Source: Anaerolineae bacterium CG2_30_57_67
GTDB taxonomy: Bacteria > Chloroflexota > Anaerolineae > Anaerolineales > Villigracilaceae
Direction: 5' to 3'
DNA: 38,882 nucleotides
NCBI GenBank assembly: GCA_001872455.1
Contig: MNXJ01000004.1
Coordinates: 1-38,882, forward strand
Shown here: one piece after another, positions 3,770-23,447 of the stretch
Layout: every line of letters begins with the position of its first letter
Position numbering within the stretch: the stretch's first letter is position 1
The notes under the pieces: generated by a model
Told to the model about the DNA's origin: nothing
What the model saw: only the letters and a program-made list of their open reading frames with translations
Database searches by the model: none
Translations under genes and position numbers: made by a program

Positions 3770-9578
<5,809 letters not shown>

Positions 9579-14335: not shown

Positions 14336-14353
14336 GGTTTCTCCTTAGGTCGG

Positions 14354-14481
14354 TTTTCCAGTTCGGCGGTTATTCGGTGTTCCGGTTCGGCGGTTATCCA
14401 GCGTTCCGGTTCGGCGGTTATTCGGTGTTCCGGTTCAGCGGTTATCCAGCGTTCCGGTTTAGCGGTTATCCAGTGCTCCGG
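14354..14481. repeat. Octamer repeats in forward orientation, 24-bp higher-order unit
   Basis: Sixteen phased 8-bp units of the form TTNNNCRG. Five copies of a 24-bp triple (such as TTCGGCGG-TTATTCGG-TGTTCCGG) form a higher-order repeat between 14362 and 14481. A mirror-oriented block follows at 14493-14580. Confidence 0.8.
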
Positions 14482-14492
14482 TTGAGATAAAA

Positions 14493-14580
14493 CTGGTCAA
14501 CCGGATAACCGAATAACTGAATAACTGGATAACCGAATAACTGAATAACCGAATAACTGGTCAACCGAATAACTGGTCAA
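14493..14580. repeat. Octamer repeats in inverted orientation
   Basis: Eleven phased 8-bp units of the form CYGNNNAA (for example CCGAATAA, CTGGATAA, CTGGTCAA) are the reverse complement of the neighbouring TTNNNCRG series. The block ends 5 bp from the stop codon of the acyl-CoA dehydrogenase gene. Confidence 0.8.
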
Positions 14581-15856: not shown

Positions 15857-16024
15857 TTTTTCGGTTTTTCGGTTTTCCGGTTTTTCGGTTTTCCGGTTTT
15901 CCGGTTTTCCGGTTTTCCGGTTTTTCGGTTGGGCGGTTGGGCGGTTATTCGGTTTTTCGGTTGTCCGGTTATTCGGTTATTCGGTTGGGCGGTTGGGCGG
16001 TTGGGCGGTTGGGCGGTTGGGCGG
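15857..16024. repeat. 21-copy octamer tandem repeat TTNNNCGG
   Basis: Twenty-one consecutive 8-bp units without any phase break: nine units of TTTTYCGG type, then TTGGGCGG, TTATTCGG, TTTTTCGG and TTGTCCGG types, then five TTGGGCGG copies. It fills nearly all the space between the two acyl-CoA dehydrogenase genes and stops about 8 bp short of the ribosome-binding region of the 14585-15847 gene. Confidence 0.9.
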
Positions 16025-16038
16025 TTGAATGATTTTCG

Positions 16039-17121: not shown

Positions 17122-17146
17122 GGGGTCTCCTTTGGGGAAAAATTGG

Positions 17147-17202
17147 TTGTCCGGTTATTCGGTTATTCGGTTGTTCGGTTGTTCGGTTGTCCAGTTGTCC
17201 GG
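17147..17202. repeat. Octamer tandem repeat between tetR and acyl-CoA dehydrogenase
   Basis: Seven phased 8-bp units (TTGTCCGG, TTATTCGG twice, TTGTTCGG twice, TTGTCCAG, TTGTCCGG) belong to the family seen at 14354-14580, 15857-16024 and 31757-31820. A heptamer block adjoins it at 17209. Confidence 0.8.
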
Positions 17203-17208
17203 TTTGCC

Positions 17209-17873: not shown

Positions 17874-19208
17874 TTATTTTTTGTGGGAAAATTTTGCCCG
17901 TAAAAACGTGGCGGTTCTGCTGACCATATCGGCGAAACCCAGGCGCGATTGTGTCAGTGGGTCTTGAACACGCCACTGTCCCGGCTCAGCTACGGCATAG
18001 AGAAATCCGCTGACGCGAAACCAGAAAACAATCATGCGATAGGCCGGCATAAACGGCAAAATCCAAAAATCGGCGCGCAGGCGAACGCGCGCCGAGGCGT
18101 CCACCCCATTCCATGAGACGAAAAACCAGAGCGCATCCACCAACAGATAAAAGATGTAGATGATGAAAAGAGCGGTAAAAATGAAAGCAACCGGATAGCC
18201 AAATAAAATCAAAATAGGCATAAAAAACGTCCAGACCAGGCGGGTAAATGCCAACGTGTGGTCAATCAACAAAACGCGCGAGGGTGTAAATCCATACGGT
18301 TTCCAGACAGATGCCTGCATCAGGCCAACATGCCGGGCGCTGACTTCAACCTGTCCGCGCTGCCAGCGCACGCGCTGCGCGTACAGCGCCGCCAGCGACT
18401 CAATCGGATGAACGTAGGCAATTGCCTCGGTGACGCAGATAATGCGGTATTTGCTAAATTTTTCGTACAGGTGAAAGGTCATGTCGGTATCTTCGGTGAC
18501 GGTTTCCTGCCCGTACAGGTTGGTTTGCACCAAAATATCGCGCCGAAAAACCGAAAACGCGCCCGAAAGGGTGTAAAGGTTTTTAAGAATGGATTGATGC
18601 GCCCGGCCAATGTGATAAGCCGTCAGGTATTCAAAATACTCACAGCGGGTGAGCACCTGATTGAGCCACGGAGCGTCAGCGGCGACCGGGAGAACATGAA
18701 TCGCGCCGGTAGCGGCGGCGACATCCGGATGAGACTCAAACGCCTCCACCACACGGCGAATCGCCTCGGGGCTGACGACTACGTCGCTGTCAATGTTGAA
18801 AACATAATTTCCACGCACCATGTGAATGCCCGCGTTGAGCGCCCAAGCTTTGCCCTGATTGACAACCGACATCCAGCGCACATTCAGACCATATTTCCCT
18901 TGAATTTCGTTGAAAACGCCAAAAGAATGGTCTGTGCTGCCGTTGTTGACAACGAACACTTCCATCTTCTCCAACGGATACTCTTGCCTGGCAATCGACT
19001 CAAGGCAAGCGCGCAGCGTTTCCTGGCTGTTGTAAACGGGGATGATGATACTGATGATGGGAAAGTAGACAAGGGAAGCAGGTTTGCGGGCACGCAATCG
19101 CAACCAAAAAACCGTCACCAGGCTGACGAGGGTATCGGTTCCATCCACCGCCAGCGGAATCAACAGCCAGACACCCCAAAAAACGACAAAAGCCCAAAAA
19201 GCGCTCAT
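17874..19208 (-). CDS. Membrane GT2 glycosyltransferase, exosortase-G-associated type
   Basis: The 444-residue family-2 glycosyltransferase is of the processive (cellulose-synthase-like) kind. A membrane helix lies at about 5-36, and the GT-A domain begins at IISIIIPVYN (51-60). The DxD is D140-S141-D142 in FNIDSDVV, the acceptor/base region is VTEDTD (E239-D242) and QRVRW is at 278-282. Two or more C-terminal helices lie around 320-375. I chose the ATG at 19208 because it overlaps the exosortase stop by four bases; an upstream frame extension is shadow. Similar enzymes accompany XrtG in Gram-positive bacteria (family TIGR03111, recalled from memory). It may make the glycan or lipid-linked anchor used by the module. 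Confidence 0.85.
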   Translation of the reverse strand: MSAFWAFVVFWGVWLLIPLAVDGTDTLVSLVTVFWLRLRARKPASLVYFPIISIIIPVYNSQETLRACLESIARQEYPLEKMEVFVVNNGSTDHSFGVFNEIQGKYGLNVRWMSVVNQGKAWALNAGIHMVRGNYVFNIDSDVVVSPEAIRRVVEAFESHPDVAAATGAIHVLPVAADAPWLNQVLTRCEYFEYLTAYHIGRAHQSILKNLYTLSGAFSVFRRDILVQTNLYGQETVTEDTDMTFHLYEKFSKYRIICVTEAIAYVHPIESLAALYAQRVRWQRGQVEVSARHVGLMQASVWKPYGFTPSRVLLIDHTLAFTRLVWTFFMPILILFGYPVAFIFTALFIIYIFYLLVDALWFFVSWNGVDASARVRLRADFWILPFMPAYRMIVFWFRVSGFLYAVAEPGQWRVQDPLTQSRLGFADMVSRTATFLRAKFSHKK

Positions 19209-19816
19209 CGTTTTTCTAAACTCTGGCGGCGCAACAACCCGGCCACCTGATAAATGGTGGGACGCGTGATGAGAAACCAATAAATGGCAACCGTCATCCC
19301 AAAGAAAGCCGCTTTTGCCAGAAAAGTGTGCGCTATGACCAGCACCGGCTTTCCCAGCCAGTGCAAGAGAACCACGATAATCATCAGCCGCAGAATGTTG
19401 GCGCCCCAGGTCATAAACAGCCCGGCCAGCACGCTGAAAATGCGCCGCCCCCAACTCCAGCCGGGGTAAAACATCACCAGGCTGACCACAACAATGCTTT
19501 CCAACATGCCGGAAGATTCCACCCCGATTTGCAGAACCGTCCAGCCCACATTTTGGGTGATGACCAATACCATCAACAAGCCGGGGGCATTTTTAAAAAT
19601 TTGGGTGGCGATGCCCAAAAAACCGGCAAATTGACTGACCGAAAACGCTACCAACTGCGCCAGTAAATCTTGAAATAGAAAAGTATTGGCGAACGCCACC
19701 AGCCAATAGGCCGAGCCAATCGCCGCCAGCGCGTAATAAGGCAACCAGATGCGATAGACGCGGAAGAAAATCACCGCCGCCAGCCATAAGATAAAGAGCA
19801 ACAGAATCCAAATCAT
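19205..19816 (-). CDS. xrtG: XrtG-like exosortase family protein with Ser in place of the catalytic Cys
   Basis: The 203-residue, multi-helix inner-membrane protein resembles the exosortase/archaeosortase family, the transpeptidase-like enzymes thought to cleave and anchor proteins by a C-terminal signal. The downstream pair of active-site residues is present: Arg143 in ANILRLMIIVVLLHW and His163 in IAHTFLAKAAFFG. The motif that normally carries the catalytic Cys reads VESSGMLES, so Ser101 lies where ECSG would put Cys (DNA TCT). Gene order and overlaps link it to a GT2 enzyme and PTPS-related proteins, as in known XrtG loci. It could be active with Ser, or have lost cleavage and retain only binding. 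The assignment rests on my motif reading and neighbours. Confidence 0.75.
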   Translation of the reverse strand: MIWILLLFILWLAAVIFFRVYRIWLPYYALAAIGSAYWLVAFANTFLFQDLLAQLVAFSVSQFAGFLGIATQIFKNAPGLLMVLVITQNVGWTVLQIGVESSGMLESIVVVSLVMFYPGWSWGRRIFSVLAGLFMTWGANILRLMIIVVLLHWLGKPVLVIAHTFLAKAAFFGMTVAIYWFLITRPTIYQVAGLLRRQSLEKR

Positions 19817-20502
19817 GCTCTCATTTTATCTTGCCTTTGGCGCAAACGCGCCATCCAAATTACCGCGGCCAGCAGAATTGCGCCCAGCAAGCCCCAGCCC
19901 AACGCGCTGGCCGGACTCCACTGCACGGGCGTATCCAATACATCCGAAATAGCGCCGTTTTCATTTTCTTCCGGGTCAACCGTCAGACCAATGTTGATGG
20001 TTTGGCCGGGGGTCATGCCCAGCAGGCCCATCGGCACGCCCCATTCCACCTTTTCGCCGCCTTCGCGCTCACTCTCGCCATAATCAACATTGTTGGCGAT
20101 TTGAGCGATAAATTGATTGGTGCCGGTGTAAACAGTCACGTCCACTTTGGAATTGTTGTTTTTGGGGTCGTAGGTGACTTTTACCAGCCGGTCGGTCGGC
20201 TCGTTGAAGATACCGTTGTTGTTCATGTCAAAACTTTGCCAGATGATGATTTGCTGGTCAGACGGCAGGCGCTCCAGCATAAAAAACAAAGTGCTGACGC
20301 CGGGGTTGGTGGCAAAATAAAACTTGGTAAAGTCAGTTCCCTGGCTGCCGTCGCCGGTCGGGTCGGTGACGTACGCCTGACCAGCCCAGTCATTAAACAG
20401 GCTGTCCAGCACAATCAACCCGGCGGCGCGCACCGGCAGAATCGTCAGGGTGGACAGCGCCAAGGCCAGCGCCAACGACCAGCGCCATCGGTTTTTTTTC
20501 AT
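19813..20502 (-). CDS. Secreted CBM9-like protein with C-terminal membrane anchor; candidate exosortase substrate
   Basis: The 229-residue protein starts with a signal peptide (MKKNRWRWSLALALALSTL, cleavage near VRAAG at about 26). The exported part begins DSLFNDWAGQAYVTDPTGDG and contains YFATNPGVSTLFFMLER, a pattern seen in CBM9/DOMON-like beta-sandwich domains, plus DMNNNGIFNEPTD, which looks like a calcium-binding loop. The C-terminus has WSPASALGW, a hydrophobic helix (about 198-218) and the basic tail RLRQRQDKMR, the tripartite plan of exosortase sorting signals. It overlaps both neighbours by four bases. No PEP motif is present. It might simply be a bitopic membrane protein; anchoring by the adjacent XrtG-like protein is inferred. 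Confidence 0.7.
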   Translation of the reverse strand: MKKNRWRWSLALALALSTLTILPVRAAGLIVLDSLFNDWAGQAYVTDPTGDGSQGTDFTKFYFATNPGVSTLFFMLERLPSDQQIIIWQSFDMNNNGIFNEPTDRLVKVTYDPKNNNSKVDVTVYTGTNQFIAQIANNVDYGESEREGGEKVEWGVPMGLLGMTPGQTINIGLTVDPEENENGAISDVLDTPVQWSPASALGWGLLGAILLAAVIWMARLRQRQDKMRA

Positions 20503-22913
20503 TTTTGAATTCTCCTCTGCGGGCGGCGAAAGACCAGTGCCATCAGAACCAACCAGGCCAGCAAGCTGACCAACGCGCCGGCGTAGTAAATGCCAGTCGG
20601 CGCAAAGCCAATTTGCAGGGCATGATTTCCGGCGGGCAGGCGCAGCGCCACCAGGTTTTCCAGCGCAAACGCCGCCAGAGGCTGACCATTTTCGGTGACG
20701 AAAAAACCGTCGTGCGCCGCCACAGGAATAAGGATAAGCGCATCGTCTTCGAGAAACACATCAAAGGCATAACCGTTTGCCTCGGCGCGGTAATTTTTCA
20801 ACGGGGCAAAGCGGGGCGGGGAAAATTCCGTCAGCGCGGACGGGAAAATTTCGCACAAAAAAGCCAGCGTTTGCGCGTTGCGGGTTTGCGCGGCAAAGTA
20901 GACCAGATTAAAGCCAATAAACCAGATTTTTCCCGCGCCGACCGGCTGATAGCCCCACAAAGCGGCGGTCTGCCCCAGGTAGGGCGCGGTAATTTGCTCC
21001 ACCGGCAAGCCCTGCGGGACGATGGCGTGCCATAACTGGCCGGAACTGCCCGGCCCGGGCAGGGTTTCGCCGCTGGAGAGCGTCAGCGGGGCGGCATCCA
21101 AAAAAATCGGCTCGCCCCAAACATCCAGAAAATGCGGAATTTGCGCCAGCGGATCGGGCGGGGTGCCGGTCAAATCCACGATGACCTGCACTCCGGCGCT
21201 GGCGGCCTGCCGCAGCAAGGATTCTGCCGCCGATTGGTTGTTCCAGCTGAAGCCAGAAAGGAAAATCGCCTGGTAGCGGGTCAACTCGTCGAGGGCGTAG
21301 TCGTCCACGACGGCGGAACCGCCCAGCGTCAGCCCGGGGAAAATATAGGCCAGGTTTTGCGCGCCGCGCCCAATGCCGAGGGCGCGTTCTGACAAAATGG
21401 CCGCGCGCGGCGCGCCGGGGCGGGTGTAAAGCGTCAGCCGGGGGAAATCCTGACGGGTGAAGCCCGCCGCTTCCAGCGGGAGCGGGGTTTCCGGCAGGGT
21501 GAGTGCCGCGTCCACGCCGTATAAATCCAGGCGGCTGAGGAGATATTCGGTGTGTCCCTGCGTCAGCGCGTCGTTGAGGGCGGCCACGTTGCGGGCAGTG
21601 TGCGCGCCCTGATAGGCCCAGCCAAAAACCTGTTCGCGCCCGGCCTGCGCGCTGAGCAGGTAGGTCGGCGCCGAGCCAAGGCGGCTTTCGTCGAGGGTGG
21701 CGATGCGCCAGCCGGGGGTCTGCGCCAGATGCGCCGCCGCCTGTTCGAGCGAGGCGTCGAGCGGGCGCAGAAAAATCAGGCGCAGCGAGGGGAAAAAATC
21801 GAGCGCAATCAGGGCAAATGTGAGCAGCAGCGGCCAGCGCCAGAAACCGGGCAGGCGGGCAGCCAGCCACAGCGCGGAAATAATCAGCAGGGTGCTGGCC
21901 GCGCCCAGAAAACGCAGCGGCCAGAGCAAATTGCTGAGCGGCAGGGAATTAAAAACTGCGTTGACGCCCGGCAGGCTGATGGCGGTCACCAGCAGGGCGG
22001 TGATGACCAGCGCCGGGGCAAAAGTTTTGCGCGGACGGGTGAGCGTCAGCAGCAGCGGGGCGGCGAGCAGCAGGGCTGCGCCCAAATAAATTCCTTCCAT
22101 GTTTTCGCGCAGGTTGGGGGTGAGCAGCTGCGCCAGCGGAATCACCGCCAGGGCTTCGGTCATGGCGCGCGCGTCCAGGCCAGTGATGCCGCCCTGCAGG
22201 CTGGGCAGCAACCAGAATCCGGCCAGTGCCATGCCCAGGGCCATCCCCAAAATGGCGGTGAAGGCATTTTTGATGGAAGCCGCGCCAAATATCCAGGCGA
22301 GGACGGCCACCAGCCCCAGCGTCACGGCGGCGATGGCGGCCAGCATGGCGTGAGTGAGCACCGTCAGCGTGAAGGCCAGGGCCAGCAGAATTTGCCAGCG
22401 GCGCGCCGGAGATTCCAGCAGGCGCAGCAGAAAGTAGAGCGTCAGCGGGAAAAAAGCCGTCGCCAGCGCGCGCGGCAGGTTGCCTTCGGCCAACGCGACG
22501 CGCAAATGGTCGGGGGCAATCAGAAAAAGCGCCGCCGCCAAAAAAGCGGCGGGGCGTCCCAGCCAGCGGGAAAAAAGTAAAACAGCCAGACTGCCCAGCC
22601 AGGCGCAGGCGGCGGTAAATTGACTGGCAGCGGCCAACCCGCTGAGCCAGTAAAGCGGAAGAAGGAGATAGTAGGGCAGCGGCGGGTAATAACGAAAAAG
22701 TTGAATCCCCAGATACCAGCCGGGAAAGATATTCGGGTAGAAATTTCCGGCGCGGACTTGCTGGTCGAGGTAGGTGACCTTCATCAGATGGCCGAGCGTG
22801 TCGGAGCCCCAGGGCAAGCCGCTGGAAAAAAGAATCGGGGCGTAGACGGGGATGGTCAATGCCAGCAAAATCAGCGGGGAAAAAAACCACAGGCGCTCAT
22901 ACCATTTTTTCAT
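20499..22913 (-). CDS. Large PTPS-related polytopic membrane protein
   Basis: The 804-residue protein has about ten or more hydrophobic helices in residues 1-370, opening LILLALTIPVYAPILFSSG with an acidic loop GSDTLGHLMKVTYLDQ. Its layout recalls the membrane proteins grouped as PTPS_related (PF10131, recalled) and GT-C glycosyltransferases that use lipid-linked donors. A periplasmic region (about 380-760) includes a Rossmann/amidotransferase-like stretch with YQAIFLSGFSWNN and AGVQVIVDLTGTPPDP. A final helix near 775-795 precedes RRPQRRIQK. It overlaps the secreted-protein gene by 4 bp and the PTPS gene by 17 bp. Transfer of a sugar or anchor to the exported substrate is an attractive but untested role. 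Confidence 0.65.
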   Translation of the reverse strand: MKKWYERLWFFSPLILLALTIPVYAPILFSSGLPWGSDTLGHLMKVTYLDQQVRAGNFYPNIFPGWYLGIQLFRYYPPLPYYLLLPLYWLSGLAAASQFTAACAWLGSLAVLLFSRWLGRPAAFLAAALFLIAPDHLRVALAEGNLPRALATAFFPLTLYFLLRLLESPARRWQILLALAFTLTVLTHAMLAAIAAVTLGLVAVLAWIFGAASIKNAFTAILGMALGMALAGFWLLPSLQGGITGLDARAMTEALAVIPLAQLLTPNLRENMEGIYLGAALLLAAPLLLTLTRPRKTFAPALVITALLVTAISLPGVNAVFNSLPLSNLLWPLRFLGAASTLLIISALWLAARLPGFWRWPLLLTFALIALDFFPSLRLIFLRPLDASLEQAAAHLAQTPGWRIATLDESRLGSAPTYLLSAQAGREQVFGWAYQGAHTARNVAALNDALTQGHTEYLLSRLDLYGVDAALTLPETPLPLEAAGFTRQDFPRLTLYTRPGAPRAAILSERALGIGRGAQNLAYIFPGLTLGGSAVVDDYALDELTRYQAIFLSGFSWNNQSAAESLLRQAASAGVQVIVDLTGTPPDPLAQIPHFLDVWGEPIFLDAAPLTLSSGETLPGPGSSGQLWHAIVPQGLPVEQITAPYLGQTAALWGYQPVGAGKIWFIGFNLVYFAAQTRNAQTLAFLCEIFPSALTEFSPPRFAPLKNYRAEANGYAFDVFLEDDALILIPVAAHDGFFVTENGQPLAAFALENLVALRLPAGNHALQIGFAPTGIYYAGALVSLLAWLVLMALVFRRPQRRIQK

Positions 22914-23334
22914 AGGTAATGCCTTCGTCCGGCGATTCCCAGAGCGTTACCCCCATTAATTCAATTTCATTGGAAGCCAGAATGCGTTCCAGTTGATGGA
23001 ACAACACGCCAGAAAGCACTTCGGTCGTCGGCTCTAAATTGCGGAAAGGCGGCAGTTCGTTGAGCAAACGGTTGTTGTATCTGGAAAGAACTTCGTGAGC
23101 AATTTCGCGCAGATGGGTAAAACCAACCACCATCTGATTGGTCGAATCGAGGTTGGTGCTGCGGCAGCGAATTTGAATGCGGTACGAGTGAACGTGCTCA
23201 TCCCCGCGCCGGCCATTCATCGTCACCGAATGGCGGGAAATGAAGAAAGTATCGAACACCACTTCAAAGGCGTGTTCGCGCGGGTGAAGAATTTCTTCGC
23301 TGTCAATATTCCAAAAATCGTCCACTGCGAGCAT
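22897..23334 (-). CDS. 6-pyruvoyl-tetrahydropterin synthase-like protein
   Basis: The 145-residue protein is of the PTPS/QueD fold. The zinc-ligand histidines are present (His35 in ISRHSV; His47 and His49 in DEHVHSYR), and EPTTEVLSGVLFHQLE corresponds to the PTxE helix of the family. No cysteine lies between the zinc histidines, so the usual catalytic Cys of true PTPS/QueD enzymes is absent. Small PTPS-related proteins of this sort are known as third partners of XrtG and its GT2 (TIGR03112, recalled). I chose ATG 23334; the frame is open to 23421, and no Shine-Dalgarno clearly decides the start. It is first of five overlapping genes and its stop lies inside the next. Confidence 0.7.
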   Translation of the reverse strand: MLAVDDFWNIDSEEILHPREHAFEVVFDTFFISRHSVTMNGRRGDEHVHSYRIQIRCRSTNLDSTNQMVVGFTHLREIAHEVLSRYNNRLLNELPPFRNLEPTTEVLSGVLFHQLERILASNEIELMGVTLWESPDEGITYEKMV

Positions 23335-23447
23335 AAAAAACAATCCAGATTTGATAAGGAAACCAGGGTGACCAAACTTTGGCTCCAATGTCAAGAGACG
23401 TTGGACTGGCGATACCCACAAGTCGCCAATTTTTGTCCTGCGGAAAA

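Follow-up and report, generated by a model that had tools for sequence, protein, structure and literature searches.

The stretch of DNA analysed here, referred to below as the window, comprises 38,882 nucleotides of contig MNXJ01000004.1 from Anaerolineae bacterium CG2_30_57_67, a member of the Chloroflexota. On its minus strand, at positions 17874-23334, it carries a five-gene module that is a unit of the XrtG type, a kind already known, and that encodes a small protein related to 6-pyruvoyl tetrahydropterin synthase (PTPS), a large membrane protein (BIG), a secreted protein with a C-terminal sorting tail (SUB), an exosortase-family membrane protein (Xrt) and a processive family-2 glycosyltransferase (GT2). 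We assign a probability of about 50% to the reading that these proteins, probably working as one complex, combine the synthesis of a surface glycan with the anchoring of one dedicated protein by a serine-type exosortase. What can be read from the sequences and the predicted models is the five genes and their order, the families to which they belong, a single strong sorting tail in the genome, a serine at the site of the catalytic cysteine, a matched change in the tail, and fusions between neighbouring members. A broader proposal, to which we give slightly less than even chances, is that XrtG enzymes have undergone about three natural switches from a Cys to a Ser nucleophile, each with a compensating change of the motif Pro to a polar residue, and that another branch has lost the nucleophile (mostly to Asn) and fused its substrate. 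Enzymes of the cysteine type, of the serine type and of a dead, fused type would then belong to one family, with the residue pair marking a contact at the scissile site.

Active site of the exosortase-like protein

Exosortases and archaeosortases are described, in the available part of one source, as carrying the conserved Cys, Arg and His of sortase active sites (PMC4343526). In the window Xrt this set is incomplete: Ser101, within E-S-S-G, takes the place of the missing Cys, and Arg143 and His163 are present. Relocation of the catalytic Cys to another part of the protein was ruled out, as the window Xrt contains not a single Cys. After removal of near-identical duplicates, 59 distinct Xrt proteins including that of the window were compared, and site 101 was found to be Ser in 30, Cys in 25 and Asn in 4. 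E100, S102 and G103 are invariant (59/59), as are N140, R143 and H163 in the 58 proteins that are not cut there, and 22 of the 30 Ser-type proteins are entirely devoid of Cys in the matched stretch. As a control, 16 weak-hit proteins, which are other exosortases or off-target matches, were read at the same site; it was readable in 12 of them and was Cys in 12/12, the active site being unreadable in the remaining ones (L012, L013, L014 and L099). The six Ser101 codons that were inspected are all TCN.

Covariation of site 101 with the sorting motif

Tails encoded beside Cys-type enzymes carry SPIPVLG, SPAPALG, CSGAPTMG and similar motifs (consensus SPxPxLG), and those beside Ser-type enzymes carry SPANALG, SPASALG (the window), SPADALG, SPASILG, SPASIFG or CSGATAMG. 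All 49 countable unfused Xrt-SUB pairs agree with this rule, 21 of them joining Cys to Pro and 28 joining Ser to N, S, D or T. Left out of this count were the Ser-type loci L059 and L072, in which the contig holds no substrate, four fused Asn-type proteins, and the classical Cys-type loci L027, L028, L029 and L104, with unalignable tails; the motif residue of L080 and L105 was set to P by eye, and site 101 of L076 is C in the alignment. The same agreement was observed in 8/8 distinct unfused loci that came to light once the rule had been noted (L117, L123, L133, L134, L135, L137, L138 and L139), of which L117 and L123 are inside the 49. The members of this later set are not mutually independent: L117, L123 and L133 are kin of the f63 family, and L134, L135, L137 and L139 stand near L106 and have Pro in place of the motif Gly itself (SPIPIMP). 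In the f63 family, which comprises Tepidiforma and its kin and has an unrelated ectodomain, the pattern is repeated, with CSGAPTMG beside C and CSGATAMG, CSGASALG and CSGANALG beside S. The motif, helix and basic end of SUB remain conserved in Ser-type loci.

The 614 columns of the joint Xrt and GT2 alignment were compared as a control for shared ancestry, and only Xrt 101 perfectly separates the motif classes, the next-best column having a normalised mutual information of 0.546. The tail alignment has 46 columns, and full separation of C from S is seen at the motif position and nowhere else. A tree was built from the 59 Xrt and GT2 rows with column 101 removed and a midpoint root; Cys is basal in it, with three C/S changes and three P/non-P changes. 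Constraining the Ser rows to one clade was rejected (p-value of the AU test 3.5e-49, in a test chosen after the tree was seen). The Ser site, together with the matched small polar residue in place of the motif Pro, thus suggests about three episodes of co-evolution between the nucleophile of the enzyme and the motif of its substrate.

Fusions between members of the module

Neighbouring members are joined within one open reading frame (ORF) at several loci: PTPS with BIG in L076, L081 and L101-L103, PTPS with BIG and SUB in L105, L107 and L108, and BIG with SUB in L073 and L109. In addition, ten loci from nine genomes of a Bacillota-type sample, whose genomes we infer to belong to the Bacillota, encode SUB and Xrt as one fused protein, and the tail helix is absent between the two parts. 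Because the fusions join neighbouring members, they suggest that the module proteins work as one complex. Cys is found at site 101 in 0/10 fused SUB-Xrt loci; nine have Asn (L100-L103, L136, L140, L141, L143 and L144, L140 and L144 sharing one genome and L143 being interrupted by a contig end) and L142 has Ser. The linker QW-x-P-F-P is found with its Pro in 10/10, so Cys has been lost there without loss of Pro. As this branch shows, the module can be maintained without cutting of its substrate.

Two other joined or broken arrangements were observed. In L110 (8028-9533) Xrt and GT2 form a single ORF; the middle of GT2 is missing and the substrate has an unusual tail, so that the locus is either in decay or misassembled. 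The Cys-type Chloroflexota locus L112 has a frameshift before the tail of the SUB gene (7625-8369), again from decay or assembly error; its candidacy as a Cys-type SUB-Xrt fusion was rejected, the second half of SUB and the tail being in another frame.

Gene module and family assignment

The five ORFs, listed in Table 1, overlap successively by 17, 4, 4 and 4 bases, as the original prediction, made from the letters alone, had claimed. The PTPS-like ORF is taken from the ATG at 23334, its longest form starting from a TTG at 23421, and that of GT2, which overlaps Xrt by 4 bases, from the ATG at the Xrt stop, with a longest form from a TTG at 19454.

Table 1. Positions of the module genes and of the sites discussed in the text.
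Feature	Position	Strand	Description
PTPS-like protein, 145 aa	22897..23334	-	Cytosolic partner; putative metal-binding His retained, no conserved Cys; PF01242, TIGR03112
BIG, large membrane protein, 804 aa	20499..22913	-	Predicted GT-C glycosyltransferase with oligosaccharyltransferase-like core; PF10131 and fold
SUB, dedicated secreted substrate, 229 aa	19813..20502	-	Signal helix, CBM9/DOMON-like beta-sandwich, C-terminal sorting tail; AlphaFold2 and family conserved across loci
SUB sorting tail, residues 193-229	19816..19926	-	Motif VQWSPASALG, single transmembrane helix, basic end
SUB Ser199 codon	19906..19908	-	Motif position: Pro with Cys-type enzymes, N/S/D/T with Ser-type
Xrt, XrtG-like exosortase-family membrane protein, 203 aa	19205..19816	-	TIGR03110, TIGR04178; no Cys
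Xrt Ser101 codon TCT	19514..19516	-	Exosortase catalytic Cys position, E-[C/S/N]-S-G
GT2, processive family-2 glycosyltransferase, 444 aa	17874..19208	-	XrtG-associated type; TIGR03111; motifs DSDV, TEDTDM, QRVRWQRG

As judged by profile scores, the family matches of the module proteins are far above chance. The 203-residue protein taken beforehand to be exosortase-like does match such models significantly, with an E-value of 3.3e-20 for TIGR03110 (XrtG) and 40.1 bits for the exosortase/archaeosortase signature TIGR04178, over its cut-off of 23. In the search against the XrtG-associated families that had been proposed as a check, GT2 reached 390.3 bits with TIGR03111, over the cut-off of 363.95 (the scanned sequence had four extra codons in front), and Xrt and the PTPS-like protein gave matches below the curated cut-offs. 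The PTPS-like protein also matches PF01242 at 77.8 bits, over cut-off, and BIG matches PF10131 at 336 bits. For SUB, the family scan gave none over cut-off and the window protein had no match to TIGR04145 (Firmicu-CTERM) at E 1; profile comparison of the SUB family with TIGR04145 gave a probability of 81.6 over 66 C-terminal columns. A profile search of solved structures found no exosortase relative, and no credible relative of Xrt or BIG by sequence.

Predicted structure and role of the partner proteins

The AlphaFold2 model of BIG has a pLDDT (predicted local distance difference test) of 90.5. With VIA-align, its core was superposed on yeast STT3 (8age_A) with a Z-score of 25.7 and a root-mean-square deviation of 3.6 over 451 residues, and BIG was aligned with AglB (3waj, Z 22.9), PglB (Z 19.9) and AftD (6w98, Z 22.6); Foldseek also found AftD, at E 3.3e-10. 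By its fold, BIG is thus predicted to be an oligosaccharyltransferase-like GT-C enzyme. GT-C glycosyltransferases carry an acidic residue in the first outer loop. In BIG, D38 and H42, located between the first helices, are invariant in 33/33 aligned rows; by analogy, they may be placed in that loop and have a role there. PTPS_related (PF10131) is listed in the GT-C clan in the accessible part of one source (PMC7801869).

SUB was modelled with a pLDDT of 91.9 and aligned by VIA-align with 2ivf_C (Z 11.9), a dehydrogenase subunit that we take to be of DOMON type, and with the CBM9 structures 7nwn (Z 11.6) and 1i82 (Z 11.5). Foldseek alone gave nothing under 0.001 for SUB, the CBM9 and DOMON-type folds emerging only with VIA-align. 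By fold, the ectodomain is a CBM9/DOMON-like domain followed by a sorting tail. The helices of the model at residues 5-19 and 203-228, the motif at 193-202 and the basic end correspond to the layout of exosortase substrates. When a tail profile was run against the genome of the window, one strong protein was retrieved, SUB itself (E 4.7e-17, a match strong by construction since the window tail is among the 13 rows of the profile), the next protein being at 0.083. As the genome has one strong tail match, the system looks single-substrate.

Canonical 6-pyruvoyl tetrahydropterin synthase and QueD have a catalytic Cys beside three zinc His. In the PTPS-like protein, H25, H37 and H39 (numbered in the aligned stretch) are each found in 41/42 loci and E95 and E123 in 42/42, and no Cys occurs in columns conserved at 90% or, in the window protein, between the first His and HxH. 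Since the His and Glu residues are kept without a conserved Cys, a canonical PTPS is unlikely on this residue pattern.

Occurrence and gene order

TIGR03110 was run over 400 genomes of the phylum and gave matches in 15, of which 8 including the window reach at least 72 bits and 0 pass the cut-off. A GT2 homologue stands beside Xrt in all seven other phylum genomes scoring at least 72 bits. Profile A1, run over 298 genomes of the class, gave 14 matches, 10 of them of at least 144 bits. Among the same-family genomes in these two scans no other strong match was found, and two were weak (TIGR03110); presence is therefore patchy. Named genomes were scanned as well and yielded 34 loci, among them those of Oscillochloris sp. 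ZM17-4, Anaerolinea thermolimosa, Candidatus Lucifugimonas marina and Tepidiforma flava, together with one locus each under the labels Symbiobacterium, Bacillota and Eubacteriales. Against TIGR03110, relatives from the Bacillota-type sample score 94-112, several with the same domain set. A related-locus search begun from a single window protein confirmed no locus.

Gene order was read in the 29 Chloroflexota loci covered by at least 4.3 kb upstream and at least 1.3 kb downstream of Xrt. All five genes are present in 22 of them, in the single order PTPS-BIG-SUB-Xrt-GT2, and the expectation that the arrangement would recur in other Chloroflexota was thus confirmed; a chance operon was dismissed because the order is conserved over many genomes. 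One gene is divided between two frames in L078 and L112. Among the 29 loci, PTPS was not seen in L049, in which the contig begins just upstream, or in L056, and BIG was not detected in five f63-family loci (L018, L023, L077, L079 and L082), which encode PTPS, Xrt and GT2 together with a protein whose ectodomain is unrelated and whose tail is similar. Two BIG (PF10131) genes lie side by side in L049 (369-5325), on the same contig as L021.

In the window, intergenic tandem arrays are located between the acyl-CoA metabolism genes that adjoin the module, at 14350-14483, 14491-14576, 15857-16027 and 17145-17204, with periods of 8, 16, 24 or 32 bases and units such as CGGTTGGG, AACCGAAT and GGTTGTTC.

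Proposed mechanism and rival explanations

In the proposed mechanism, GT2 would make or extend a glycan at the inner face of the membrane, and at the outer face BIG, with the PTPS-like protein attached, would transfer a sugar or glycan linked to polyprenyl. SUB would be secreted and held by its tail helix, with the CBM9-like domain touching the glycan, and Xrt would act on the SPASALG motif and then join SUB to a glycan or lipid acceptor. With Ser101 replacing Cys and Arg143 and His163 kept, the small polar motif residue may suit the Ser-type site. From the sequence patterns, the odds that Ser101 is the nucleophile are about even, and this assignment is favoured because the N/S/D/T replacement is specific and because the tail and the partners are retained.

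Several observations weigh against a cutting, serine-type XrtG module. Xrt scores 72.8 bits with TIGR03110 and misses the curated cut-off of 102.75, and the PTPS-like protein scores 60.2 bits with TIGR03112 (E 2.2e-16) and misses that of 69.35. One or two of the five genes are absent from 7/29 covered Chloroflexota loci, and the sole joined Xrt-GT2 ORF, in L110, has an internal gap in GT2. The independent changes number three on the best tree and two on strongly supported branches, all in the same direction, and a sign test has no power with only three of them. In the fused L142, Ser occurs with the motif Pro kept, an exception to the pairing of S with non-P, in a motif that the tail helix no longer follows. 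N140, R143 and H163 are retained in the fused Asn-type proteins too, so their conservation is no proof of catalysis. Finally, an engineered archaeosortase, ArtA C173S, was reportedly found inactive by Abdul Halim in 2018.

The main rival of the Ser-nucleophile reading, which we consider a possible if doubtful explanation, holds that Ser- and Asn-type Xrt are non-cutting pseudo-exosortases that hold the uncut tail and couple SUB to GT2 and the GT-C protein, the module being a glycan synthase complex with SUB as a permanent subunit. The fused branch is its chief support, since ten SUB-Xrt loci with Cys in none would make the module viable without cutting; the fused Ser-type case L142 and the inactivity reported for ArtA C173S point the same way. 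However, the three unfused Ser lineages replace the motif Pro by N/S/D/T only (28/28, and L133) and fused non-Cys forms keep it in 10/10, which is the opposite of simple relaxation, and the tail of Ser-type loci conserves its motif, helix and basic end.

Another explanation, which we judge improbable, places the nucleophile of the whole family at Ser102 and leaves residue 101 merely to shape the pocket for the substrate motif. Ser102 is indeed invariant in 59/59 rows irrespective of residue 101, and the 12 readable other exosortases show S, A or V after Cys. Yet most of those exosortases likewise have Ser there, and fused, presumably uncut forms retain Ser102 and lose Cys101, which indicates residue 101 as the catalytic one. 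Least probable, in our view very much so, is that shared ancestry alone gave rise to the covariation, the Ser lineages happening to bear different tails. The small number of changes on the tree and the powerless sign test speak for it; nevertheless, all 614 columns have that ancestry in common and perfect agreement with the motif is confined to residue 101, and the f63 family repeats the pattern on an unrelated ectodomain. The reading of Ser101 as a nucleophile matched to its substrate motif is the one that we prefer.

Significance

In the literature searched, which was thin on subscription papers, no report was found of Ser- or Asn-type exosortases, of the covariation, of fused forms or of XrtG in Chloroflexota. 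The XrtG kind is known; what appears to be new is its branch in the Chloroflexota, the presence of Ser or Asn at the active site, the covarying motif and the existence of fused forms. A natural residue pair that changes jointly in enzyme and substrate gives a direct handle on the contact between the enzyme and its signal, and the available part of one source calls the exact processing site of ArtA and the attached lipid unclear (PMC11980579). Whether the exosortase Cys is essential can be tested on the Ser and Asn forms that nature provides. Moreover, the module links exosortase action to an oligosaccharyltransferase-like GT-C protein that the name "PTPS-related" has concealed. The role of XrtG is testable in named strains such as Oscillochloris sp. 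ZM17-4 and Anaerolinea thermolimosa (Ser, all five genes) and Tepidiforma flava (Cys, other substrate).

Comparison with known systems

The closest known system is XrtG/Firmicu-CTERM of the Bacillota (TIGR03110, TIGR03111, TIGR03112 and TIGR04145), represented here by Lactococcus and Lachnospira loci, which likewise combines an exosortase, a GT2 and a PTPS-like protein and has, directly before Xrt, a substrate with a DGxxxDW stretch and a C-terminal tail. XrtG is described in L. plantarum in the available part of the one XrtG paper that the literature searches gave (PMC12854382), and that locus is counted among the comparable XrtG systems. The Lactobacillus gts operon was dropped as an XrtG locus, GtsA being described as without known domains in the accessible part of its source (PMC6123363). 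The view of the original prediction that this is an exosortase-G-type unit outside Gram-positive hosts was borne out, yet it was incomplete, the Ser at the catalytic Cys and the motif covariation having been overlooked. It had also treated the large membrane protein and the built-in candidate substrate as additions to XrtG loci. The candidate substrate is present, but neither gene is an addition: the Lachnospira (E. eligens) locus comprises a Firmicu-CTERM protein, XrtG, a TIGR03111 glycosyltransferase, a hypothetical protein, a PTPS and a BIG homologue, and since it has counterparts of all five genes these are standard. The window module differs in that its Xrt and PTPS fall below the curated cut-offs, its tail motif is different and its catalytic Cys is Ser; the Lactococcus and Lachnospira substrates match TIGR04145, whereas the window SUB does not. 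On a Lactococcus plasmid (L027, 3956-6392), the Firmicu-CTERM/XrtG genes are immediately preceded by genes for a diguanylate cyclase and an EAL protein, which suggests cyclic di-GMP control of some XrtG modules; in the window, no such gene was noticed among the ORFs close to the module.

XrtA/PEP-CTERM and ArtA/PGF-CTERM resemble the window system in that TIGR04178 is over cut-off, Arg and His are kept and the partner has a tripartite C-terminal signal. PEP-CTERM and PGF-CTERM hosts often have many substrate tails. The window differs from these systems by its Ser in place of Cys and by the one strong substrate tail of its genome. Residues 1-500 of BIG share the fold of the GT-C proteins STT3, AglB, PglB and AftD (Z about 17 to 26); identity to them is low (10-14%), and BIG is encoded inside an exosortase operon. 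Residues 28-200 of SUB resemble CBM9 and DOMON domains over about 150 residues (Z 11-12), with sugar binding as a putative function, and differ from them in bearing an exosortase tail.

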